This document shows positions 5,976-22,901 of a stretch of 33,281 nt of DNA, piece after piece. The notes under the pieces are model-generated. The model was not told where the DNA came from and searched no databases. It saw only the letters and a program-made list of their open reading frames with translations. The position numbers were made by a program, and so were the translations under genes. The DNA lies in NCBI GenBank assembly GCA_012719395.1, contig JAAYAL010000083.1, forward strand, positions 1-33,281, read 5' to 3'. Each line of letters begins with the position of its first letter. Position 1 is the first letter of the stretch. Source of the DNA: Gaiellales bacterium (GTDB lineage: Bacteria > Actinomycetota > Thermoleophilia > RBG-16-64-13).

Positions 5976-8033
5976 GTGAGGCTGCCGGCGGGAATGCCCG
6001 AGCGGCGTCCACGCGGCTCGGGCCTGCTCTCTGGCCCTCTCTTCCTCGTCGCCTGTCTGCTGGGCTGTGTGCTGCTACTGGTGGTGCCCGGCCCTTCCTG
6101 GGCGTTGGCTTCGTCCCTCGCCGTGACGCCGGCCACGCCGTTCTGCGTGGTTGGTGAGACTGCCCGCCTCCACGTCACGGGGACCATGGCGGGACCCGTG
6201 GGAGCGGTCACGGCGCGTATTCAGGTGTGCGGCCCGGGGCGCCCGAGCTCTGGGGCGGAGGATTGGCCTATCACCGCGGAGCTCACTGTTCCCATGGGTG
6301 ATCTCGAGGGGGAGGTGGACTATACAATCTCTCTGCCCGCGCGGGCCCTTCCCCAGGCGGGGGCTTTTGAGGCACGCGTTACGGTGGGGGCGGGGGACAC
6401 CCAGCTGGGTCTGATGTCCACGTGGCTGGCAGCGGTGGTCTCCGACCAAGCGAATGTCGACTTGGCCCTCGTGTTGCCGCTGATACGTGGTGTGAGACAG
6501 GATCCATCCGGGGCCTTCGTGGATTCCGTCATCAGAGAGACGGCGGCTCCCTTCTCGGATGCGGGGGGAAGTCTCTACTTGCCGGCCTCTCTCCTGCGAG
6601 ACTTCCCCGGTTGGCATTTCTCGCTGGCAGTGGAGCCGGCGCTGCTCTCTCAGCTTGAGTCACAGACCGGCGGGTTCAGCGAGGTCTCAGGCGGCTCTCT
6701 CACGGAGTACAGTGCCGAGTCGACGGAAGCGCGCCAAGCGGCGGGAGGACTTGCGGTCCTGCGGGGGTTGGCCCGGGAGCCGGCCGTGGAAATCATCCCC
6801 ACGCCCTATGCGGCGCCCGCCGCCGCCGTTCTGGCGGAACAGGGCTGGCAGGAAGGCCTGGAGCAGATGCGGTTGGGGAGAGCCACGCTCCAACGGGTGT
6901 TGCAGCCCGGGCAGATATCCGGGGGTGCCTACGTGCCCGGCCAGGATCTGACCACACGCTGTCTGGCCTATTTCAGCCAAGCCTCCGTGGAGTATGTGGT
7001 GGCATCGGCGATGGTGACGAAGGACTTGGCCGAATCGTCTCAGGACCCGCTGCTCCCCGTACGTATCGCGGACAGTGAGAACAACCGCGTCACCCTGATG
7101 CCGGTGTCCAGCGAACTGTCCTCGGCCCTGGCCGACACCTGGGATGTCCCTCGCTTCTTCGCTGCCGTGGCCAGTCTCCTGGCCGACGGCCGCTCCGTGC
7201 TGATCGCCGCGCCGGCGCACGACTACGCGCAACTGGATCCCGCCGGCCTCAGAGCGCTGGGGCTTGGTCTGTCGCAGACAGAGTTCATCTCCACCCTGAC
7301 CTTGGCGGAACTGCTGGAGAAGCACCCTCCCAGCAGCCGCCCAGTCTTCTTGAGCCGTTTCGGAGGGCATCAGCCGGGGCTGATGGCACACACTCTGATA
7401 GAGAGGATCCGGGAAGCGCGCGGGCCCATCGCGGATCTGGTCGTGGCGGCAGGGGAGAGGGCTGGGCCGGTCTCGGCCGCCCGGGTGGCGCTCTTTCACG
7501 CCGAGAGCCGCCTATGGCTTCGGGAGGGGGCGGATCCGGCCCACGTCAATCTGGGCCTCTCATGGGCACGGGAAGCCCGGCGAGTGGTCGAGGGGGAGTT
7601 CGCGGCGGTGCACGTGGGCAAGGTGAACGCGAGGGAGAGGGAGGGACGGGCGGTGGATGTCGCGGTGGCTGTGGACAACGCCGCTGGGCAGCCGATGTCG
7701 CTGGCATTCGAGGTGGCACCGTCTGAGGGAGGGGAACCGCTGACCGTGGTGGAGCGGACGGTGGAGGTGGGTGGCGGTACGGTCGTGCTGGAGGGGATCG
7801 CGGTCCCCACAGGGCGCTACCTTCTGGCAGTTCGGGCAGGTAGCACGGAGTTGGCGTCCGTTCCTTTCTCCGTGCGGTGGGGATGGGCGGCAGAGTGGTG
7901 GCTGTGGACAGCCGCCGCCCTCGTCCTGTGCACCGCGGCGGTCGTGACAGCCAAGTGGTGGCGCCGTCGCACGGCGTCGCCACCACCCAAAGGTGAACCG
8001 GCGGTCAGGAGAGTGCGGCGTGGACCTTCTTGA
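5976..8033 (+). CDS. Exported, C-terminally anchored protein, DUF6049-like
   Basis: A 685-residue protein with an N-terminal signal or anchor helix (about 18-45), a large extracytoplasmic part, one C-terminal membrane helix (about 640-660) and a basic tail. The order is a beta-rich region (48-160), then an alpha/beta section beginning LALVLPLIRGV and containing SLAVEPALLSQL. This recalls the actinobacterial DUF6049 proteins and their GH57/deacetylase-like fold, but I recognise no catalytic motif with confidence. A second beta domain (about 560-635) precedes the helix. GTG 5976 is used; ATG 5994 is an alternative. Its 3' end overlaps the convergent CoA-binding gene by 29 bp. Envelope location is well supported, function unknown. 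Confidence 0.75.
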   Translation: MRLPAGMPERRPRGSGLLSGPLFLVACLLGCVLLLVVPGPSWALASSLAVTPATPFCVVGETARLHVTGTMAGPVGAVTARIQVCGPGRPSSGAEDWPITAELTVPMGDLEGEVDYTISLPARALPQAGAFEARVTVGAGDTQLGLMSTWLAAVVSDQANVDLALVLPLIRGVRQDPSGAFVDSVIRETAAPFSDAGGSLYLPASLLRDFPGWHFSLAVEPALLSQLESQTGGFSEVSGGSLTEYSAESTEARQAAGGLAVLRGLAREPAVEIIPTPYAAPAAAVLAEQGWQEGLEQMRLGRATLQRVLQPGQISGGAYVPGQDLTTRCLAYFSQASVEYVVASAMVTKDLAESSQDPLLPVRIADSENNRVTLMPVSSELSSALADTWDVPRFFAAVASLLADGRSVLIAAPAHDYAQLDPAGLRALGLGLSQTEFISTLTLAELLEKHPPSSRPVFLSRFGGHQPGLMAHTLIERIREARGPIADLVVAAGERAGPVSAARVALFHAESRLWLREGADPAHVNLGLSWAREARRVVEGEFAAVHVGKVNAREREGRAVDVAVAVDNAAGQPMSLAFEVAPSEGGEPLTVVERTVEVGGGTVVLEGIAVPTGRYLLAVRAGSTELASVPFSVRWGWAAEWWLWTAAALVLCTAAVVTAKWWRRRTASPPPKGEPAVRRVRRGPS

Positions 8034-10755: not shown

Positions 10756-10953
10756 ATGGAACTGGCGTTGGTCGGCTCGGGAGAGGGACGCTGGACAGTG
10801 GCGGAGGCTATCGAGAGGGATCTCGCCACTCCCGTCCTCACGCTTGCGTTGCTTGTGCGTCTGGCCGGCAGAGACCAGGAGGACTTCGGCGCCAGATTGC
10901 TGGCCGCACTTCGACGTGAATTCGGTGGCCGCCAACTGCCGGTGTCCCGCTAA
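10756..10953 (+). CDS. Small hypothetical protein upstream of the YfcE-like gene
   Basis: A 65-residue ORF that I do not recognise. It is likely real: GGGAGG lies 5 nt before the ATG, and its TAA shares a base with the next gene's ATG (TAATG), giving tight translational coupling. The product is helical and moderately hydrophobic (TPVLTLALLVRLAG in the middle), ending in a basic Arg-rich tail (LLAALRREFGGR), with no signal peptide and no Cys. It could be a regulator or partner of the phosphoesterase. Confidence 0.6.
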   Translation: MELALVGSGEGRWTVAEAIERDLATPVLTLALLVRLAGRDQEDFGARLLAALRREFGGRQLPVSR

Positions 10954-11540: not shown

Positions 11541-12755
11541 TTAGAACTGCTCCGCGATGTAGGCGGTCAGCTCTCCCATACGATGCGTGTAGCTTCCCAG
11601 CTCGTTGTCATACCAGCCAAAGATCTTGGCGTGCGTCACCGGGATCTCGACTGTCTCTGCTGTACCGGGCAACTTGACCGGGATGAGACCGGTGCGGGTG
11701 TGGGTTTCCAGCGCTTCGATCACGGTTGCTGCGTTCTCGCCGATCATGTCGCTGGACACGTTCTGCTCATAGCTGACTTTGAGGAGGTTCTTGGCCGGGC
11801 CGGCGGCCGCTTCCTCGTAGATCTTGTTGATGACATCCTGGGTGATCTTGGGCCGGCCGCCCGCGTCCATCTCTGTCTGGAAAGTGGCGTTCAGCACGAT
11901 GAGGCTGGCGGTGTTGGTGGGGATGCGCAGGGAATCCGCCATGAAGCCGATGCTGCCCATCTGCGGCATCACCGGTTCCAGCGCCTTGGCGGCGTTGGTG
12001 GAGGTGATGATGATGTTGTTGAGGATGGACCGTTTCTTGCGGAGGTCCTTCTCGTCTTCCTTGGGAACGGAGTCAAGCACCGACTGCGTGTTGGTGACGG
12101 CGTGAACGGTACCCATCCCCGCGGTCATCATGTTCTTGGTCAACTCGTTGTTGAGCAGCGGGCGCATCATGTGAGCCAGGCCCGTGGTGGTGCAGGATGC
12201 TGCCGAGACCATGGTGTGCGTGCCGGGTACGAACTGCTCGTGATTGATGCCGTAGATGAGCATGACAGCGTCATCCGGCATGCTCTTGGACTTGTCTTTG
12301 ATCTTGAAGGCCGAACTGTTCACCACGACCTTGGCGCCGCCCAGCAGGTGTCCGCGAATGGAGCCTTTCTTGGCATCATCAGCAGGGGTGGTGGGGTCTT
12401 TGAACTTGCCGGAGCAGTCGACCACGATATCCACACCGTAGTCCCGCCACGGGATGTCCTTGGGGTTGCGCTCCGAGCGCAGGATGGTGACGTCCTTGCC
12501 GGCGATGCGCAGGAGGCCTTTCTCTTCGTCCACCACGCGGCACTCGAGCTCGCCCTTCTGCCCGTAGAGGTATCGGCTCAGGGGACCGTAGGTACTGTCC
12601 TTCTTGAGGTACTGGGCCACGGCATCGAGCGACTTCCCGATCCCGCGACCAGCGTTCATGACAAACGAATCGAAGGCGTCGCGGTCGAGGTGGTACCAGA
12701 GTGTCAGCTTACCGATCCGGCCGAGCGCGTTGATACCCAGAACTCGACTTGCCAT
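11541..12755 (-). CDS. Divergent glyceraldehyde-3-phosphate dehydrogenase-like protein
   Basis: NAD(P)-dependent phosphorylating GAPDH fold, but 404 residues against the usual 330-340. The Rossmann start reads GINALGRIGK (normally GINGFGRIGR). Catalytic Cys188 lies in SAASCTTTG, with partner His218 in TVHAVTN. GWYDNELGSYTHRM (380-393) replaces the canonical WYDNEWGYS, changing the conserved second Trp to Leu. Extra residues sit between 35 and 60, around 120-135 and near 151-160. The catalytic pair is intact, so dehydrogenase activity is plausible, but the substrate may differ from glyceraldehyde 3-phosphate. AAGGAGG precedes the start. It is the gene after the orphan dikinase in the same operon, 52 bp downstream of it. 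Confidence 0.88.
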   Translation of the reverse strand: MASRVLGINALGRIGKLTLWYHLDRDAFDSFVMNAGRGIGKSLDAVAQYLKKDSTYGPLSRYLYGQKGELECRVVDEEKGLLRIAGKDVTILRSERNPKDIPWRDYGVDIVVDCSGKFKDPTTPADDAKKGSIRGHLLGGAKVVVNSSAFKIKDKSKSMPDDAVMLIYGINHEQFVPGTHTMVSAASCTTTGLAHMMRPLLNNELTKNMMTAGMGTVHAVTNTQSVLDSVPKEDEKDLRKKRSILNNIIITSTNAAKALEPVMPQMGSIGFMADSLRIPTNTASLIVLNATFQTEMDAGGRPKITQDVINKIYEEAAAGPAKNLLKVSYEQNVSSDMIGENAATVIEALETHTRTGLIPVKLPGTAETVEIPVTHAKIFGWYDNELGSYTHRMGELTAYIAEQF

Positions 12756-12807: not shown

Positions 12808-15800
12808 CTATCCCCGGTTGGCCTGTGTTGTGGCGGAGATCACCTCCCGCTTGCCTAAGAAGATGTGGCCCGTGCGGCCGTCGATGCTGAGCCAATCGCC
12901 CACACGCAGTTCTTGTCCGTTCAGGCGGGCGGTCCCGGCTCCTTCGTTGACTTCAAGTCCGCGGCAATCGACGACGGCGTTCTTGTGCAGGCGCTTCGCG
13001 GTCACCGCTGCGTGGGAAGTGGCTCCACCGCGTGCCGTGAGGATACCTTGCACGCGAACAATCATAGCGATTTCCTCGGGCACTGTGTCAGGTCTTAGCA
13101 GCACGATGTGGTCGCAGGGTGTTTCCGTGGCCAACCTGTCGATCTGTTCGGCGTTCACCGCCACCCGACCGGCGTATGCACTGCCGGAGACCCCCATTCC
13201 CACGGCGTCAGGCTTGGGTGCGCGCTCGTCGGGAGCGCGGGCGAATGTCATGACACCTTCGGGCACCTCCTCTACCATCGAGCGCTTCTGCAGCACATAG
13301 ACATCCTGGGCGTGCGGGGATTCAAAGGCGAACTCGATCTCCTGCGGGTCGTGCTCCCGGGTGCTCACCAAGTCTTTGGCCACCTCCAGGAGTTGGTTGT
13401 ACACTTCAGGGAACTCTGTCTCCAGACTGCGGCGCACTCCCCGGTATGTCGCGCTGGCCCGGCGTTGGGCTTCAGACATGGGCAGTGGATTGACCAGCCC
13501 GCCCACGAGGTCCTCGCCCTGCGCCCCAATGGCGAAGTCGCCGAACAGCCGCACCTGCCCACTGCGCGGTTCCACGAGGCTGCGGGTGAACGTCACCCCC
13601 GCGCCCGACTGGCGGCCACGGTTGCCGTAGATCATCCGCTGGATGATGACGGCGGTTCCCCATTCCTCGGCCAGGCCCATGTAGCGGCGGTAGAAGCGGG
13701 CCTGCGGGGAGTAGTAGGAGGCGAGCACCCGGCCGACGGCGGCCACCACCTGCAGCAGTGGGTGGTCGATGAGGACGACGCCCAGTTCTTGCGAGCGGGC
13801 GCGGTACGCCAGCGCGATCTCCTTCATCTGCTCCGCGGTGAACTCCAGCTTCTGTCCCACGCCGTAGCGAGATTTGTATCCGGCGATGATCTCGTCGAAA
13901 ACGTCCCGGTCGATCCCGGCGGTCATGGCCCAGGACTGAAGGAACCGCCGGTACGAGTCCCACGCCGTCCAGGCCATGCCTGGTTGCTGGGCGAGGGCCT
14001 CGGCGAGCTCGTCATTGAGGCCCACGTTGATCAAGGTGGCCATGAGCCCGGGCATTGAGATGGCGGCACCGGAGCGGATGGCGAGCGTGAGCGGCCGGCT
14101 GGGGTCGCCCAGCCCCAGTCCCGTCTTGTCCTCCAACTCCGCAAGAGCGTGGCGTATGCGGGCCAGCGTGTGCTCGTACAGCGGGCGGTGGCTCATGGCG
14201 GGAAAGACTCCGAACAGCTCGGTGGTGAGCACGAAACCTTCAGGTACGGTGTAGCCGTACTCAGTCATCCTCTTGAGCCCCAGAGCCTTGTAGCCCAGGG
14301 TCATCTGATCGTCGACGTTGGGATTCGGCCTGTCCAGCCACGATACCAGTCGATCTGGATCGTAGGCCATCATGCGCGCGAGGTCGCGGGTATCCACCTT
14401 CTCCGCCAGGGCCGACAGGTGGCTCCGAGCGTTGGCCACATAGCGGTCCAGGCTCTGCAGACCCAGCGTGGCCACCAGGATGTCCCGCAGGAAGCCCTCG
14501 ATCACCGCGTCCAGGCCAAGCCGCCGGCAATCCAGCTGCCGGCTGTCGTCGGTCAGTATGCGGCGCAGGGCATCGTCGTAGCCCTGCATGGTCAGGCGCA
14601 CAAGATTGGTCACATCGCCGGCCAAGAACTGGAAGACGTTGCGGCACTGATTGAAGGTGAAGCCGGCGTGTGCAGCCCCATCGCGCAGCATGATGAGGTC
14701 GGAATTCAGGCTCTGCGACCTCAGCCCGTCAACCTCCAGGGCTCGCTTGAAGCACTCCAGGTTGCCTGCGAAGCGCCGGAGCGAGGCGCGGCTGACATAC
14801 TGGTCAGTTATCTCGGTGGCGATCTCATCCAGAAGCTGAGCCACGAGGCCCTCAATGCGGAACGAAAGCCCGAGGGCATCGAATTTGGGTTCTCGATAGG
14901 TGCCGTACATGGAGGGGATACCGGCGGCGATATGCCGTTTGTGAAAGATGTTCTCCTGCCCCTCCGAGTGCTTGCCGCTTAGGATTGTGGTCTTCAGTTC
15001 GGCAAGAGCCCTCAATCCCTGCTCGAGCAACGCCTCACGGCTGCGAGATCGGGAGTAGCGAGTGATGGCGGCCAGCACGCCCCGTTGCGGCGAGCGCAGG
15101 CATGTCTGCCATGTGTCCAAGGCGGCGGTGAACTCCCGACGGGTCTCGGCGGATAGCGTCAGCGAAGCGGACACCAGGGGCCCCAGGTTGCGAGGAGCGA
15201 TGGAGTACTTCTGCTCCAGCAGATCGCGCATGCGGCGCATCAGCTCCACTTTGCGATAGTCCTCAGGGGCCGCCGGCAGGTTGGCCAGCACTTTGTGGGG
15301 CCCCTCCGCCTGGGAGCGCTCGCTGGTCACGGCGGCCAGCACGCGCTCTGAGAGGAACGGTGCCAGGGGCCCGGGATCCAGCGTGGACCAATAGTCGAGC
15401 ACCGCGGTGCTGAAGGGGATGAGACGGTTGGAGGACTCCGCGTGCACCTGTTTGCGGATGAAATGCATGAGGGAGTCCTTGCGGCCACCGATCTCGTCGA
15501 TCTCGGTGGAGACGGAGCGCAACTCGCCTTCTGCCCCGACCTCGTTGAAGTAGACAGGGAAGCAGCGTAGAAGCTGCTTGATAACGGAGTAAACCGGTTC
15601 GATGTTGGCGTTGAGCAGGTCGGTGATGTCTTTCTGAAAGAGGTCGGTATCGGCGATGAAGGCGCCGCCCAGTCTCAGTTGCGCGGTGAGCCCGGCGGCC
15701 AGGCGTTCAAAGAGTTGGGGATTGGAGCGGATGATGCGCAGCCAACAGCGGATGTTGGGCAGGTGGTGGCGATTGGCCAGCGTCCGCCATTCATCGTTGG

Positions 15801-16941
15801 CCCCACAGACATCTTGGTACTCGAAGTGCCAGTGCAGAAGATCATCCGTGAGCCGATCAGCGGCCCCCACCGCTCCCGCTTCGCCAATGGCGACCCCGAT
15901 GGCTTCGTAGCACTGGAAGCGCATCTCCGGGAACAGCCCCTCCCTCTCCTGAAAGAACCGGGCCAGACGACGCAGTATGCGGTGGAAGTGCACGATGCGC
16001 GAGGGGCGGATGATCTCCCGCACTACCGACAACAACTCCACCATCACTTCACGCTGGCGGAGACCGAGAGACGTGTCCTTGAGCAGGAACAGACAGACGG
16101 CGAAGCGGTCATCCAGCGCTGAGATGCGGAAGAGTCTCTGCACCACCTCCTCCAGCATCTGGCTGAAGGTGGGGTGTTCCGGACCAACCAGTTCCATCGC
16201 AGCCGCTCCCGCCGCCGCCGACAGGTGGTGGCGGATGGCATTCGTGCCTGTGGATGCGAAAAGACCCGCCACCTCTTGGGGCGAGTGCACGCGGGCCTCG
16301 CGAGTTAGGGCCCAATCGGCCACATCGAGATGCTTTGCCACGATGGTGTAGCCTCGGAGCAGCACACGCCGGTAGGTTTCGGCCAGGCGCAGTGCCGGCA
16401 ACTCGGCGGCGGCGTGACCCGCGCCGACGAGGTCCAGCGCCACTTGTGTGACGTCTCTCAGCGCCTTGTCCCTCTCGAGCAGCGCCGACTCCAGCCGGGG
16501 GTACAGACGCTCGATGAGCGATGCCGCATCGGCGACAGGTTGCAGATACTCGTCCGCGTGAGAGCCGGTGATGGCCGCTTTCATCCAGACCAGCAATTGG
16601 CGTAGCAGCTGAGAGGCGCGGTCCTCAGGCAGTACACCCTGGAACAGGCCCTCCATGATTTCGAGGACGAGAGAGAAGAGGAGGGCTCTGTCGGCGGAGC
16701 GATCGAAGTAGTTCCAGTCGCGGAGCAACAACGTCTGCAGGCCGTCAATCACCGTGCCCGCGTGCCGGTAGCTGTGGAAGTACTCCTCCAGCGTCTCTCT
16801 CAGCAACTCGTGGGCACCATACGCGTCGGCCACGGCCTCAAGCATGACGTTGAACCTGTCGGGAATGATGGGGGCTTCCGCTGTGCCCGCGATGTTGGCC
16901 CTCAGGGCGTCCGAGTCCAGTGGCAGGAGGGAGGCGCTCAT
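12808..16941 (-). CDS. Large PPDK-like dikinase with unknown 870-residue N-terminal region
   Basis: A 1377-residue protein. Residues 1 to about 870 are mostly helical and unrecognised. From about 880 to 1255 comes a pyruvate-phosphate-dikinase-type ATP-grasp domain (GYKALGLKRM, then IRSGAAISMPG near 955, IYGNRGRQSGAGVTFTR near 1105, QGEDLVGG near 1140, and DPQEIEFAFE with LQKR at its end). The swivelling phosphohistidine domain follows, with catalytic His1310 in GGATSHAAVTAKRL. The protein stops about 68 residues after that His, so the PEP/pyruvate-binding barrel of PPDK and PEP synthase is absent. The acceptor may therefore be bound by the N-terminal region. AAGGAG lies about 10 nt before the ATG. 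It lies between a CorC-like gene (20 bp upstream) and the GAPDH-like gene. Confidence 0.85.
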   Translation of the reverse strand: MSASLLPLDSDALRANIAGTAEAPIIPDRFNVMLEAVADAYGAHELLRETLEEYFHSYRHAGTVIDGLQTLLLRDWNYFDRSADRALLFSLVLEIMEGLFQGVLPEDRASQLLRQLLVWMKAAITGSHADEYLQPVADAASLIERLYPRLESALLERDKALRDVTQVALDLVGAGHAAAELPALRLAETYRRVLLRGYTIVAKHLDVADWALTREARVHSPQEVAGLFASTGTNAIRHHLSAAAGAAAMELVGPEHPTFSQMLEEVVQRLFRISALDDRFAVCLFLLKDTSLGLRQREVMVELLSVVREIIRPSRIVHFHRILRRLARFFQEREGLFPEMRFQCYEAIGVAIGEAGAVGAADRLTDDLLHWHFEYQDVCGANDEWRTLANRHHLPNIRCWLRIIRSNPQLFERLAAGLTAQLRLGGAFIADTDLFQKDITDLLNANIEPVYSVIKQLLRCFPVYFNEVGAEGELRSVSTEIDEIGGRKDSLMHFIRKQVHAESSNRLIPFSTAVLDYWSTLDPGPLAPFLSERVLAAVTSERSQAEGPHKVLANLPAAPEDYRKVELMRRMRDLLEQKYSIAPRNLGPLVSASLTLSAETRREFTAALDTWQTCLRSPQRGVLAAITRYSRSRSREALLEQGLRALAELKTTILSGKHSEGQENIFHKRHIAAGIPSMYGTYREPKFDALGLSFRIEGLVAQLLDEIATEITDQYVSRASLRRFAGNLECFKRALEVDGLRSQSLNSDLIMLRDGAAHAGFTFNQCRNVFQFLAGDVTNLVRLTMQGYDDALRRILTDDSRQLDCRRLGLDAVIEGFLRDILVATLGLQSLDRYVANARSHLSALAEKVDTRDLARMMAYDPDRLVSWLDRPNPNVDDQMTLGYKALGLKRMTEYGYTVPEGFVLTTELFGVFPAMSHRPLYEHTLARIRHALAELEDKTGLGLGDPSRPLTLAIRSGAAISMPGLMATLINVGLNDELAEALAQQPGMAWTAWDSYRRFLQSWAMTAGIDRDVFDEIIAGYKSRYGVGQKLEFTAEQMKEIALAYRARSQELGVVLIDHPLLQVVAAVGRVLASYYSPQARFYRRYMGLAEEWGTAVIIQRMIYGNRGRQSGAGVTFTRSLVEPRSGQVRLFGDFAIGAQGEDLVGGLVNPLPMSEAQRRASATYRGVRRSLETEFPEVYNQLLEVAKDLVSTREHDPQEIEFAFESPHAQDVYVLQKRSMVEEVPEGVMTFARAPDERAPKPDAVGMGVSGSAYAGRVAVNAEQIDRLATETPCDHIVLLRPDTVPEEIAMIVRVQGILTARGGATSHAAVTAKRLHKNAVVDCRGLEVNEGAGTARLNGQELRVGDWLSIDGRTGHIFLGKREVISATTQANRG

Positions 16942-16961: not shown

Positions 16962-18287
16962 TCAGGACGCATCTTCGCTTCCGGGAGTGCCGTTGGCTTT
17001 CACCTCAGAGACAGGGCTCATGAGGACTCGGGCTACGCGCATGCCATCTACCTCGAGGATGCGCACCTGGTAGTTGCCGAGGACCACCTCGTCGCCTGCC
17101 CGCGGTCGGCGCTGCAACTGCTCGAAGACGCGGCCGCCGAGAGTGGGGAACCCCGGCTCGGTAAGGGTCAGCCCCAGCGCCTCCTCTAGATACTCCAGCC
17201 GGGCGCCCCCGTCAACCGAGTACGTTCCGTCGGAGAAAGCCTCAACCAGAGGGGCTTCGTGGTCGAATTCGTCTTGCACCTCGCCAATGAGTTGCTCCAC
17301 CACGTCTTGAACCGTGACGAGGCCGCTGGTGCCCCCGTGCTCGTCCACCACAATGGCCAGAGGGGTGCGGGCCGATTGGAAACGCGCCAGTGCCAGCTCG
17401 ACACTTGCGGTCTCCGAGATGAATCCCACCTGGCGCAGTACCGACCGCACCGTTCGCACCCGGTCCGCCCGGTACAGGTCTTTTACGTGCACGTAGCCGA
17501 TGGTGTCGTCCAGATCGTCCTCGAACACTGGATAGCGGGTATGGTTGGAGAGTGCCACCTCGTCCAAGGCTTCGCTGACGGGAGTGTTGGCCGACAACGC
17601 CGCCATCTCGGTACGGGGTACCATGACTTCGCCCACTGTCACTTCGCCCAAAGTGAGCGCGCGGCGCATGATGGTTTGTTCCACTTCGTCGATGTGGCCC
17701 CCTTCTGCGCTGGCGCTAAGGATCATGCGCAACTCGTCCTCGCTGTGGGCCAGATCCGCCGCCGTGGCGGGCTTGACCCGTAGGAGAGCAAGAATGCCTT
17801 TGGTCAGGGAGTTGAGCACCCAGACGATGGGCCAGAACAGCCAATAGAAGAAGCGCAGGGGGACGGCCAGCACCAAGGTGGCGCCCTCCGCTTTGCGGAT
17901 AGCGATGGACTTGGGGACCAGTTCTCCCAAGACGATAGTGAACCCCGTGGCCAGCACGAAGGACAGCACGGCGGCGACGGTGGTGCGCAGTTCCGGCGAG
18001 CTGATGCCGAGCCAGTCGAGCGGGTCGGAGATGAGCTTCGAGAGGACGGGCTCGCTCGCCCAGCCCAGGCCAAGGGTGGCCATGGTCACGCCCAGTTGGA
18101 TGACCGGCAGGTAGGACTCCACCTTGTCAAGGATCGGCAGGGAGATCCGCGCGATGCGGCTCCCGGCCTCTGCCATCTCGATGATACGGGTGGGGCGAAC
18201 CTTGACTATGGCGAACTCGGCTGCCACGAACACGCCGTTGACGACGATCAGCAGAACAATCAGCAGGACACCCAGCGCTGTGCTCAT
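16962..18287 (-). CDS. CNNM/CorC-HlyC family membrane protein
   Basis: A 441-residue protein with the CorC/hemolysin-C layout. An N-terminal DUF21/CNNM transmembrane domain (helices near 4-26, 65-85, 103-123 and 137-165, with GELVPKS at 121-127) is followed by two CBS domains (about 218-335, with MVPRTEM and DEHGGTSGLVTVQDVVE). A C-terminal CorC_HlyC domain covers about 345-430. Members are linked to Mg2+ or Co2+ transport or efflux and bind nucleotides through the CBS pair. It heads the three-gene minus-strand operon with the orphan dikinase and the GAPDH-like protein. The shared Mg-nucleotide theme is suggestive but unproven. Confidence 0.92.
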   Translation of the reverse strand: MSTALGVLLIVLLIVVNGVFVAAEFAIVKVRPTRIIEMAEAGSRIARISLPILDKVESYLPVIQLGVTMATLGLGWASEPVLSKLISDPLDWLGISSPELRTTVAAVLSFVLATGFTIVLGELVPKSIAIRKAEGATLVLAVPLRFFYWLFWPIVWVLNSLTKGILALLRVKPATAADLAHSEDELRMILSASAEGGHIDEVEQTIMRRALTLGEVTVGEVMVPRTEMAALSANTPVSEALDEVALSNHTRYPVFEDDLDDTIGYVHVKDLYRADRVRTVRSVLRQVGFISETASVELALARFQSARTPLAIVVDEHGGTSGLVTVQDVVEQLIGEVQDEFDHEAPLVEAFSDGTYSVDGGARLEYLEEALGLTLTEPGFPTLGGRVFEQLQRRPRAGDEVVLGNYQVRILEVDGMRVARVLMSPVSEVKANGTPGSEDAS

Positions 18288-18441
18288 CTCAGGGCAACAG
18301 CGCCAGGGTCACGAGCCGGTGCGTGTGAGGTACTTGGGGGGTCTTCTGCTTGGCCCATATGGTGCCTCTAGCATAGCAGAAGAGTCGGTGGCCGCGTGGC
18401 TAGAGCCCCGCGGGTAAGGACATGGTGGGCGCGACAGCCAG

Positions 18442-18471
18442 CGGCCCCCGGCAAAGTGTCGCCGGGGGCCG
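18442..18471 (-). terminator. Hairpin downstream of hydroxyacyl-CoA dehydrogenase
   Basis: CGGCCCCCGGC and its exact complement form an 11-bp stem with an 8-nt loop, 20 bp past the dehydrogenase stop on the minus strand. There is no T-tract. It separates that gene from the CorC-dikinase-GAPDH operon, which begins downstream at 18287. Confidence 0.65.
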
Positions 18472-18490
18472 AGAACTGTGTCTGCTCAGT

Positions 18491-19360
18491 TCAGTGCTTC
18501 TCGGCGTAGTCGTAGAAGCCCTTGCCGCTCTTCCGACCCAGGTAGCCGGCCATGACCATGTTGCGGACAAGGTCTGGCGGGTTGAAGCGGGCTTCCTTCG
18601 TGTACTCGTAGAGCATGTTGCCGATGTGGTACACGATATCGATACCGACGAAGTCGGCCAGCTCCAGCGGCCCCATGGGTAGGTTGGCGCCCAGCTTCAT
18701 GGCGGTGTCAATGTCGGCGGCGGTGGCCACGCCGCTTTCGTACACGCGCGCCGCGTCAATGATCATGGGGATGAGGATGCGGTTGACGATGAAGGACGGC
18801 GTGTCCTTGCAGGGCACGGGCGTCTTGCCCAGCTTCTTGGTCAGCTCGATGGTGACGTCAACCACGTCCGGGGTGGTCTGCAGCGCGGGGATGATCTCCA
18901 CCAGTTTCATGACCGGCACCGGGTTGAAGAAGTGCATACCCACCACCCGGTCCGGCCGCGCCGTTAGTGCCGCCAGCTGCGTCACAGAGATGGACGAGGT
19001 GTTGGTGGCGTAGATGGTGTCGGGGCCTACCACCGGCTCCAGGCTCTCGAACAGGGCCTTCTTGGCAGAGACCTCTTCCAGGATGGCCTCGATGATGAAG
19101 TCGGCCTCCGCCATGACGGCTGGGTCGGTGGACATGGTGATGCGATCCAGGACGGCCCGCCGCGCGTCCGCCGTGATCTTCTCCTTGGACAGCAGCCGGT
19201 CCAGGCTCTTGGTGATGATGTTCATGCCGCGCTCTAGGAAGGCGTCCTGCACGTCCAGCACCTTGACCTTGTACCCGGATTGCGCCGCCTGCTGTACGAT
19301 GCCGGCGCCCATGGTGCCTGCGCCGCACACGCCGATGGTCTTGATCTCGTCGACTTTCAT
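18491..19360 (-). CDS. hbd: 3-hydroxyacyl-CoA (3-hydroxybutyryl-CoA) dehydrogenase
   Basis: NAD(P)-dependent oxidoreductase interconverting 3-hydroxyacyl-CoA and 3-ketoacyl-CoA, 289 residues, the normal length for Hbd/PaaH. The Rossmann loop GVCGAGTMGAG is at 10-20. The substrate loop TNTSSIS is at 119-125. Catalytic His143 lies in HFFNPVPVMKLVE, and the family signature CKDTPSFIVNRI at 184-195 is followed by the C-terminal helical domain. ATG 19360 is chosen because AAGGAG sits 6 nt upstream; the ORF could extend 11 residues further. It is a single gene with its own hairpin. The enoyl-CoA hydratase and thioesterase elsewhere in the window could act in the same pathway. Confidence 0.94.
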   Translation of the reverse strand: MKVDEIKTIGVCGAGTMGAGIVQQAAQSGYKVKVLDVQDAFLERGMNIITKSLDRLLSKEKITADARRAVLDRITMSTDPAVMAEADFIIEAILEEVSAKKALFESLEPVVGPDTIYATNTSSISVTQLAALTARPDRVVGMHFFNPVPVMKLVEIIPALQTTPDVVDVTIELTKKLGKTPVPCKDTPSFIVNRILIPMIIDAARVYESGVATAADIDTAMKLGANLPMGPLELADFVGIDIVYHIGNMLYEYTKEARFNPPDLVRNMVMAGYLGRKSGKGFYDYAEKH

Positions 19361-19430
19361 GTCCACTCCTTGTTCCGGACTAATCCCGATCACCGCGAGG
19401 TGCTGAGAGGCGAGTAGGACGCTAGTCTAC

Positions 19431-19447
19431 CGCCACAGGCCGTGGCG
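19431..19447 (-). terminator. Short hairpin after nth
   Basis: CGCCAC (19431-19436) and GTGGCG (19442-19447) form a 6-bp stem with a 5-nt loop, 3' of nth on the minus strand. It overlaps the region just after the nth stop by position only. A weak terminator candidate with no T-tract. Confidence 0.3.
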
Positions 19448-19450
19448 CCG

Positions 19451-20122
19451 CTAGAAGGCACCGGCCGTGGGGCAGATATCCGCCAGTCGGCACCGCCCAC
19501 ACCCCGGCTTCTTTGCGGTGCACACTGCACGGCCGTGCTCGATCAGCAGGTAGGAGATCTGGAACCAGTCCTGCCGCGGCACGATGGCAAGCAGGGCCTG
19601 TTCCGTCTTCACTGCATCCTTGCTGTGGGCAAGTCCCAGTCGGTTGGCCAGTCGGTGCACATGTGTGTCCACGGCGATCCCGGCGCCCGGGTCGCGCGCG
19701 AAGGCCTCGGGGTAGGCGTTGCCCAAGATGATGTTGGCCGTCTTGCGGGCCACGCCCGGCAGGCGCAAGAGTTCGGCCATGGAATCCGGGACGCGGCCGC
19801 CGAACTCGGCCAGGATCATGCGGGCGGAGGCCAGGATGTGCGTGGTCTTGTTGCGGAAGAAGCCGGTGGCGTAGATGTCCTGCTCGAATTCCGCCGGATC
19901 GGCGGAAGCGTAGTCCTCAATACTGTGGTACTTCTGGAAGAGCCGCTCGGTGACTTGGTTGACGGTCTTGTCTGTCGATTGCGCCGACAGTATCACCGCC
20001 ACGGTGAGCTGCCAGGGGTCATGATGAGTGAGGACAATGCCGGCGTCCGGAAAGTCGCGGCGCAGGCGCATCACGATCTCACGCGCCTGCTCCGCTGGAG
20101 GCTCCAAAGGTGTTCCGGCCAC
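19451..20122 (-). CDS. nth: Endonuclease III
   Basis: DNA glycosylase/AP lyase that removes oxidised pyrimidines in base-excision repair, 223 residues. The helix-hairpin-helix LPGVARKTAN carries catalytic Lys127. The general acid Asp152 lies in VDTHVHR, and the [4Fe-4S] cluster loop C201-x6-C208-x2-C211-x5-C217 is exact. The start is GTG 20122, whose G is the last base of the iorB stop (TAGTG), so nth is translated by coupling to the iorAB messenger. This is unusual company for a repair enzyme. A start at a later codon would lose the N-terminal helix. Confidence 0.95.
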   Translation of the reverse strand: MAGTPLEPPAEQAREIVMRLRRDFPDAGIVLTHHDPWQLTVAVILSAQSTDKTVNQVTERLFQKYHSIEDYASADPAEFEQDIYATGFFRNKTTHILASARMILAEFGGRVPDSMAELLRLPGVARKTANIILGNAYPEAFARDPGAGIAVDTHVHRLANRLGLAHSKDAVKTEQALLAIVPRQDWFQISYLLIEHGRAVCTAKKPGCGRCRLADICPTAGAF

Positions 20123-20775: not shown

Positions 20776-22569
20776 CTAGCCGTTGACGGCGGCCGGCGCC
20801 TTGATCGCTTCAAACTTGCACATCTGGGCGCAGACACCGCAGCCGTTGCACTGCGTCTGGTCAATCTGGACAACGGTCTTGCCGTCCTCCCTGTTCACGA
20901 GCCCCAAGGCAATGCAGGCCACGCGCAGACAGCGCCTGCATCCCGTGCACTCCTCGGCGTCAATGACCCAGGGCTCGTGCTTCACCTTGTACTCGAGCAC
21001 ACAGGGCGCCTGGGCGATGATGACCACCGGCCCTGGGGTGGCCAAGGCCTCGCCGATTGACTTCTCCACCTGGGCCAGATTGTAGGGGTCCATCTTGATG
21101 ATGGTGGGAACTCCGAAGGCCTCACAGATCTTCACCAAGTCCACCGCCGGAGTCAGAGCACCGCTGAGGGTCTTGCCCGAACCGGGGTTGTCCTGACCGC
21201 CCGTCATGGCCGTGGTGCGGTTGTCGAGGATGAGGGTGACCGTCTCTCCCCGGTTCCACACCGTGTTGAGCAGAGGCGTCATGCCGCTGTGCAGAAAGGT
21301 GGAATCGCCGATGACCGCTACGGGGCGGTCCTTGGTCTTGGTCTCGGCGTCTTGGACTTTGGCCATTCCGTGGGCCATGCCGATGCCGGCTCCCATGCAG
21401 ACGCACGAGTGCATTGACGCCAGCGGCGGAAGCGCACCGAGGGTGTAGCAACCGATGTCACCACTCACGAAGATCTTCATACGGTTGAGCACCGTGAAGA
21501 CACCACGGTGCGAGCAGCCGGGGCATAGCGTGGGTGGCCGCAGGGGCAGATCAGTGCGGTCAGGTGTTGGGACTGCTGCGAGCTCTTCATTGACGCCCGG
21601 CAGTCCATCGCAGGCCAACGAGCGGGCCACCAGACCGGGGTCAAACTCGCCCAGGAGGGGCAGCAGGTTCTTGCCGCCGTCCACCTTCACTCCGGTGGCC
21701 CTGAGGTGCTCTTCGAAGAACGGGTCCAGTTCCTCCACCACGTACAGCTTCTCCACCTTGCCCCGGAACTCGGCGATGAGCGCGTCCGGCAGTGGGTAGC
21801 TCATGCCCAGTTTCAGGAAGCTGGCTTGAGGATAGGCCTCGCGGGCGTACGCATAGGCGGCGCCGGAAGCCACGATCCCCACGCGAGGGTCGCCCATCTC
21901 GATGCGATTGAGCGGGGTGTGGTTGGAGTAGACCTGTAGCGCTGTGAAACGCTTCTCCACCGCCACATGCCGTGCGCGGGCGAAACCGGGCAGCATGGTG
22001 TACTTGGAGGCCGTCTTCTCCAGGCCTGTGATGTTGCCTGGTTCGCGTCTCTCTCCCAGCTCCACGATACTCTTGGAGTGGGAGATGCGTGTGGTGGTGC
22101 GCAGCATGACAGGGGTGTCGAACTCCTCGGAGATATCGAGCGCCTGCATCAGGAAGTTCTTGCACTCCTGACTGTCGCTGGGCTCCAGTAGCGGAATCTT
22201 GGAGAATTTGGCGTAGTTGCGGTTGTCTTGCTCGTTCTGCGAGCTGTGCATGGCCGGGTCATCGGCGGAGATGAGCACCAACCCGCCCTTGATCCCCACG
22301 TATGAGGCGGTCATAAGTGGATCGGCCGCCACGTTGACGCCCACGTGCTTCATAGAGCAGATGGCGCGGGCACCGGCCACGGCTGCGCCCAGTGCCGTTT
22401 CCAGCGCCACCTTCTCGTTGGTGCACCATTCGCTGTAGACATCCGCATAGTCGGCGATAGTCTCCAGGATCTCTGTGCTGGGGGTGCCCGGGTAGGCGCT
22501 GGCAAATCGGACGCCCGCCTCCCACGCTCCGCGAGCTATGGCCTCATTGCCTGAAAGGATCTCCCGCAT
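20776..22569 (-). CDS. iorA: Indolepyruvate:ferredoxin oxidoreductase, alpha subunit
   Basis: Catalytic subunit with thiamine diphosphate and two [4Fe-4S] clusters, 597 residues. The N-terminal pyrimidine-type domain starts GNEAIARGAWEAG and includes YPGTPSTEI. The ThDP domain contains CPGCSHRG, GDIGCYTLG and GDSTFLHSGM, followed by LDNRTTAMTGGQ. The C-terminal ferredoxin domain has Cys541, 544, 547, 552 and Cys574, 577, 580, 584. ATG 22569 is preferred over 22575 and 22596 because GGAGGA then lies 7 nt upstream. It is first in the operon iorA-iorB-nth. Its presence implies anaerobic, ferredoxin-linked amino acid fermentation or the reverse, reductive, synthesis. Confidence 0.95.
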   Translation of the reverse strand: MREILSGNEAIARGAWEAGVRFASAYPGTPSTEILETIADYADVYSEWCTNEKVALETALGAAVAGARAICSMKHVGVNVAADPLMTASYVGIKGGLVLISADDPAMHSSQNEQDNRNYAKFSKIPLLEPSDSQECKNFLMQALDISEEFDTPVMLRTTTRISHSKSIVELGERREPGNITGLEKTASKYTMLPGFARARHVAVEKRFTALQVYSNHTPLNRIEMGDPRVGIVASGAAYAYAREAYPQASFLKLGMSYPLPDALIAEFRGKVEKLYVVEELDPFFEEHLRATGVKVDGGKNLLPLLGEFDPGLVARSLACDGLPGVNEELAAVPTPDRTDLPLRPPTLCPGCSHRGVFTVLNRMKIFVSGDIGCYTLGALPPLASMHSCVCMGAGIGMAHGMAKVQDAETKTKDRPVAVIGDSTFLHSGMTPLLNTVWNRGETVTLILDNRTTAMTGGQDNPGSGKTLSGALTPAVDLVKICEAFGVPTIIKMDPYNLAQVEKSIGEALATPGPVVIIAQAPCVLEYKVKHEPWVIDAEECTGCRRCLRVACIALGLVNREDGKTVVQIDQTQCNGCGVCAQMCKFEAIKAPAAVNG

Positions 22570-22901
22570 TTCCATTCCTCCGCGCTTCCGGGACAAACTT
22601 CGCTATTGTAGCCATCGGGAAAGGCTGCGAACAATGTGTGGATGTGTAGCCGGCCGGTGAGGGATACACAGGAAAGGGAGATGCCGGTAGCATTGGGCTG
22701 AAGCACGGGAGGCGACGGCAGCGCCGGGAGGACGGCTGAGGTCGTGAGCAGGTGCAGGTTGGTGACAGCGACAGCGGGTGTGCCGGGGATTCCACGCTGT
22801 TTGCCCGCGCATACAGCCACGCGCGAGGGAAGGGGCGTCGTGACCGAGGCACTCGGGGCCTGCGCACGTTGTACCCCCGGTCCTGCAAGAGGGCAACGGG
22901 C
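22570..22901. other. Gene-free stretch between iorA and the xanthine dehydrogenase remnant
   Basis: About 330 bp between divergent units. It holds the iorA ribosome site and candidate promoter at its left end. I find no credible gene, repeat or RNA in the rest. Because it borders a decayed operon, part of it may be eroded coding sequence, but no homology to the missing subunits is visible in any frame. Confidence 0.5.
22605..22634 (-). promoter_or_regulatory. Candidate iorA promoter
   Basis: Minus strand TTGTTC (22629-22634), an 18-nt spacer, then TACAAT (22605-22610), about 35 nt upstream of the chosen iorA start. Five of six -10 positions match the sigma-70 consensus. Confidence 0.45.

Follow-up and report, generated by a model that had tools for sequence, protein, structure and literature searches.

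A PPDK-type dikinase without a PEP barrel and its GAPDH-like partner: a possible dikinase module at the phosphoglycerate step

Introduction

PPDK (TIGR01828; structure 1kbl) joins an ATP-grasp and a swivel phosphohistidine domain to a C-terminal PEP/pyruvate TIM barrel, and several dikinases that do not rely on PEP are already known. In rifampin phosphotransferase (Rph, PMC4844700) the dikinase reaction uses an acceptor domain that is not a barrel, HpeHI (PMC12167813) is a dikinase with ATP-grasp and His domains and a non-PEP acceptor, and VadK (Rv1127c of M. tuberculosis, PMC13400623) has a PPDK-derived ATP-grasp and His domain, no barrel, and a place near its pathway genes. The protein described here, DikX, is a variant of this phosphohistidine dikinase kind. 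An earlier note on this DNA had proposed a possible new dikinase class, which is too strong because the barrel-less VadK of PPDK type and the other-acceptor dikinases Rph and HpeHI have been described. In the open-licence literature we found no paper on a phosphoglycerate dikinase or on DikX, and no description of its N-terminal domain, of the position of that domain ahead of a PPDK-type ATP-grasp, or of a strict partnership with a GAPDH.

Domain organization of DikX

The window, that is, the whole stretch of 33,281 nucleotides analyzed (contig JAAYAL010000083.1 of the Gaiellales bacterium assembly GCA_012719395.1), contains the following features of interest.

12808-16941, minus strand: DikX, whole gene, ATG start, 1377 aa, PPDK-type dikinase without PEP barrel
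15922..16941, minus strand: DikX residues 1-340, helical in the model, poorly conserved across phyla in the identity comparison
15262..15921, minus strand: DikX residues 341-560, conserved block 1 (DTDLFQKD, YFNEVGAEGELR, STEIDEI, LMHFIRKQ, HAES), from identity to distant relatives
14782..15021, minus strand: DikX residues 641-720, conserved block 2, with a beta hairpin at 662-683 (ENIFHKRHIAAGIPSMYGTYREPKF), from the alignment and the model
13267..14319, minus strand: DikX residues 875-1225, PPDK-type ATP-grasp, from Pfam, conservation, and PPDK residue mapping
12868..13107, minus strand: DikX residues 1279-1358, swivel phosphohistidine domain, His1310 codon at 13012-13014
11544..12755 (stop codon 11541-11543), minus strand: GapX, 404-aa divergent GAPDH, from Pfam, NCBIfam, and neighbor comparison

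Pfam identified PPDK_N at residues 921-1221 (E 1.7e-24) and the phosphohistidine domain PEP-utilizers at residues 1279-1358 (E 9.9e-16), with no other significant match along the full protein; the PEP-utilizers_C barrel (PF02896) is absent, and the chain terminates at residue 1377 with no such barrel after the His domain. The best solved relative among PDB sequences is the PPDK of C. symbiosum (residues 875-1371, E 9e-71), and a second predicted model, covering residues 330-1377, aligns with PPDK across some 550 columns. The earlier description of a real open reading frame with a PPDK-type ATP-grasp, a phosphohistidine domain at His1310, and then the end of the chain is thus confirmed by Pfam and by the PPDK alignment, to which we add that the gene lies on the minus strand; the ATP-grasp limits given then, 880-1255, were roughly right and are better drawn at 875-1225.

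The catalytic residues of the PPDK of C. symbiosum have their equivalents in DikX: K885 (K22), R956 (R92), R999 (R135), D1144 (D280), E1203 (E323), Q1218 (Q335), R1220 (R337), and H1310 (H455), the last one within a conserved GGATSHAA motif, while the D321 position is occupied by Glu1201. The equivalents of D321, E323, Q335, and R337 were aligned by eye, as HMMER misplaced that stretch. Apart from the D321 position, the mapped ATP-site residues and His1310 are invariant among 18 DikX homologues. With NCBIfam, DikX scored 342.6 bits against PPDK (TIGR01828), below the cut-off of 843.45, and 67 bits against PEP synthase, so by these scores the ATP half reads as PPDK-like rather than PEP synthase-like, which makes Pi as cosubstrate and the release of PPi the likelier first half-reaction.

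A further 25 genomes, drawn from two phyla, contain homologues with the same architecture, at 31-66% identity to the window DikX where aligned, which rules out a truncation produced during assembly. In L026 the dikinase is split into two frames that meet near position 10937, by a frameshift or a sequencing error. Matches among plasmid records were restricted to the PPDK part, with no full-length relative.

The N-terminal region

Residues 1-874 matched nothing in Pfam or NCBIfam, and an alignment of 21 DikX sequences over this region gave no convincing Pfam match, only isolated single-member hits (E of at least 0.015). A profile of the conserved N-terminal part likewise found nothing convincing among PDB sequences (best E 0.08). 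The AlphaFold2 model (pLDDT 85, pTM 0.79) is essentially all-helical, with a single hairpin at 662-683, and Foldseek retrieved no solved fold at E<=0.001 with it. As global fold relatives, we found only weak and nonsignificant resemblances to alpha-solenoids (E of at least 4e-3, TM about 0.15). The all-helical model, together with the Pfam, PDB, and fold searches, rules out a TIM barrel hidden in residues 1-870, in agreement with the earlier view of this stretch as an unknown region; no family covers the full length of the protein either. No Rph-type acceptor domain was matched in residues 1-874 by Pfam, PDB sequences, or folds, and the NCBIfam Rph model scored 29 versus 999 bits on DikX, with its best stretch within the ATP-grasp. 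The same Pfam, PDB sequence, and Foldseek searches gave no sequence or fold link from this domain to any 3-phosphoglycerate-binding protein.

Conservation is uneven along the protein. Compared with six distant relatives, the window DikX shows 12-18% identity over residues 1-340, 37-42% over residues 341-560, 38-48% over residues 641-720, 43-49% over the ATP-grasp, and 34-42% over the His domain. The two N-terminal blocks are as conserved across phyla as the ATP-grasp, which fits an acceptor site. Among the charged positions that never vary are D431, D438, R459, E471, R475, D482, E483, R487, D489, H493, R496, K497, and H500 in the first block and E663, K668, R669, H670, E684, R695, and E697 in the second. 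Conservation of this kind is what a functional site would show, and the many invariant Arg, Lys, and His residues suggest an anionic ligand. The earlier proposal that the N-terminal region supplies an acceptor site is therefore backed by the dense invariant Arg, Lys, His, Asp, and Glu residues that such a site would be expected to have, and the acceptor itself is still something that we infer. In the dikinases of L024, L025, L031, and L036, a low-complexity insert that varies in length and reaches about 100 residues lies between the two blocks, at about 555-640 (window DikX numbering), which suggests a flexible linker.

GapX and its pairing with DikX

GapX starts 52 bases downstream of DikX. 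It scores 279 against the NCBIfam model TIGR01534, below the cut-off of 367, and, compared with canonical GAPDH, it contains three inserts. Numbering after the GAPDH of B. stearothermophilus, with the reference sequence entered by hand, GapX C188, H218, and R277 correspond to Cys149, His176, and Arg231 and are invariant in 16 GapX sequences; T221 and T253, equivalent to T179 and T208 of phosphorylating GAPDH, are also kept. The equivalent of Asp32, which is NAD-selective in GAPDH, has been lost, and an NxGR motif is present in all GapX sequences. Loss of this Asp is associated with NADP use, as in the gluconeogenic GapB of Bacillus. A reference title in PMC4518329 gives GapB of B. subtilis as NADP-dependent. 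The replacement of the NAD-selecting Asp by NxGR suggests that GapX probably uses NADP(H).

We examined the distribution of both genes in 41 related genomes and in 794 sampled genomes (396 Actinomycetota and 398 Bacillota, the latter phylum added via a Clostridiales record). DikX homologues with the N-terminal region were present in 19 of the 41 relatives and in 5/396 Actinomycetota and 6/398 Bacillota, and high-scoring GapX occurred in exactly the same genomes (the same 19 of 41 and the same 11 of 794), so that none among the relatives and the sampled genomes of both phyla had DikX alone or GapX alone. By their record titles, related loci come from Actinomycetota, one of them a Thermoleophilia MAG. 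Of the 26 carriers, 25 have the two genes as immediate neighbors, and one (L025) has them separated by about 3 kb; where contig ends interrupt the dikinase, as in a few draft genomes, the fragment next to GapX served to judge adjacency. Even in the L033-L036 family, where GapX is transcribed divergently from DikX, the two remain adjacent. The distance matrices of the two proteins correlate with r 0.94 (0.90 within the closer clade), a figure to which shared species history contributes. GapX is apparently an obligate partner of DikX across the two phyla sampled, and for this reason DikX is not the orphan dikinase that the earlier note had described.

Genomic context

No transporter or catabolic genes conserved beside DikX-GapX were seen across families. 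In the L033-L036 family the next gene after DikX is a canonical gap, and L036 has the order dikX-gap-pgk-tpiA-gpmI. In the window, a gene for a CNNM/CorC-type CBS-domain membrane protein (16962-18287, minus strand) ends 20 bases upstream of the DikX start; the same gene is directly upstream of DikX in L021, L022, L024, L025, L028, L029, L031, and L032, all of the same family, and was not seen beside DikX in other families. Elsewhere in the window, an indolepyruvate ferredoxin oxidoreductase alpha subunit (20776-22596, minus strand; TIGR03336, above cut-off) fits an amino acid-using anaerobe, and a 685-aa open reading frame (5976-8033, plus strand) has no Pfam or NCBIfam match and a 36% relative in L028 at 18133-19884. 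A link with aldehyde:ferredoxin oxidoreductase was uninformative, as this gene is common in the same families but absent from the window genome and present in some noncarriers.

PGK is kept in all 41 related genomes and a canonical-type GAPDH in nearly all, and the window genome has canonical gap and pgk together on contig C33. PGK loss in carriers is therefore ruled out as the reason for DikX-GapX, no PGK bypass is required, and the pair is an extra module. The sole PEP barrel of the window genome belongs to an intact canonical PPDK, with a gene for a membrane pyrophosphatase two open reading frames away and one 351-aa open reading frame between them (L043, 3-5404; G000 contig 64), an arrangement that makes PPi use or disposal plausible in this organism. 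In ten other carriers, every PEP barrel was in a long open reading frame (559-1041 codons), as long as one for PPDK, PEP synthase, or enzyme I. None of the 11 carrier genomes has a stand-alone barrel, which rules out a barrel supplied in trans to DikX in them.

Possible function of the DikX-GapX pair

The most economical reading is a phosphate relay from the ATP-grasp through His1310 to an N-terminal acceptor, the product of which would be used or made by GapX. From the conserved PPDK residues, we can predict that the ATP-grasp would split ATP, place a phosphate on His1310, and release AMP and PPi, probably with Pi as a cosubstrate as in PPDK. The swivel domain would then ferry the phosphate to an acceptor bound at blocks 341-560 and 641-720, the presumed replacement for the TIM barrel of PPDK. 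In the last and weakest step, the acceptor would be 3-phosphoglycerate and the product 1,3-bisphosphoglycerate, a compound that GapX would reduce, NADPH being the probable cofactor, to glyceraldehyde 3-phosphate; the whole system could operate in the opposite direction as well. DikX would be to phosphoglycerate kinase what PPDK is to pyruvate kinase.

Our first candidate is 3-phosphoglycerate/1,3-bisphosphoglycerate, given that the triose-phosphate site is retained in GapX and that, in one family, the module lies among lower-glycolysis genes. We also count in its favor that R135 and D280 of PPDK are kept and that the N-terminal blocks, at 37-48%, are as conserved as the ATP-grasp (43-49%); against it, adjacency to a GAPDH is no less compatible with other phosphorylated aldehydes or with a regulatory role. 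We tentatively regard DikX as an AMP/PPi-forming dikinase of this step, coupled to a GapX that probably uses NADP(H), and a two-gene metabolic module made of DikX and GapX seems possible to the same limited degree. A more ambitious statement is rather doubtful: DikX would be the founder of a new dikinase class, its N-terminal helical domain would bind 3-phosphoglycerate (ATP + Pi + 3-phosphoglycerate <-> AMP + PPi + 1,3-bisphosphoglycerate), and the product would pass to a GAPDH partner that depends on NADP(H).

The N-terminal site could instead receive another acceptor, probably a nonphosphorylated one such as glyceraldehyde, another short aldehyde, a sugar, or a hydroxy acid, with GapX oxidizing or reducing the phosphorylated aldehyde product in a small salvage or catabolic pathway that involves no PGK bypass. 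As Rph and HpeHI show, this superfamily phosphorylates hydroxyl groups on a variety of small molecules (PMC4844700, PMC12167813), and the low TIGR01534 score and the three inserts of GapX may mean a different substrate. However, GapX retains the triose-phosphate and phosphate-site residues, and conserved neighbors, where one family has them, are lower-glycolysis genes rather than transporter or catabolic genes. We consider such a pathway less likely but a serious rival.

The strict partnership could also be that of a regulator and its target, DikX being a VadK-like phosphohistidine kinase that controls flux by binding or phosphorylating GapX, or other enzymes of glycolysis, through its helical N-terminal scaffold. 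VadK, described as a PPDK without the pyruvate domain, autophosphorylates and interacts with the methylcitrate-cycle enzymes encoded nearby (PMC13400623), and the alpha-solenoid, which the N-terminal region weakly resembles, commonly serves in protein binding. The charged residues of the two blocks are nevertheless conserved like an active site, which would be unusual for a pure scaffold, and VadK has no domain like the DikX N terminus; a regulatory role is likewise a serious rival, if a slightly less likely one. A decayed or split PPDK, with the pyruvate barrel lost or encoded by another gene, is suggested by the homology of the C-terminal half of DikX and is very hard to reconcile with the lack of a stand-alone barrel in the window genome and ten other carriers, with the PPDK ATP-site residues and His1310 kept across two phyla, and with a conserved N terminus.

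If DikX does act at the 3-phosphoglycerate/1,3-bisphosphoglycerate step, the PGK step would have a second enzymatic route, a PPi-linked alternative to phosphoglycerate kinase at a point through which nearly all central carbon metabolism passes. Even with another acceptor, a large uncharacterized conserved domain and its strict partner gene have been defined, and an anonymous annotation of the "PEP/pyruvate-binding" type becomes a testable two-protein system.

Comparison with known systems

GapX resembles type I GAPDH (TIGR01534) and the NADP-dependent GapB in its catalytic Cys and His and most of the phosphate-site residues, and differs from them in its length (about 400 aa), its three inserts, the loss of the Asp32 equivalent, and its position always beside DikX, if at some distance in L025. 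On the dikinase side, DikX shares with PPDK the ATP-grasp and the swivel His domain, with about 30% identity over 490 residues and all of the mapped residues from K22 to H455, but it lacks the C-terminal PEP/pyruvate barrel and has some 870 extra N-terminal residues. Rph, which DikX is predicted to resemble in its dikinase chemistry and non-barrel acceptor, follows the order ATP-grasp, acceptor domain, and His domain, whereas in DikX the acceptor-like region precedes the ATP-grasp and the His domain. HpeHI is Rph-like, split into two proteins, and acts on phenolic compounds. VadK, also a PPDK derivative without a barrel, is reported to consist of the ATP-grasp and His domains only, to which DikX adds an 870-aa, partly conserved N terminus and a strict GAPDH partner.
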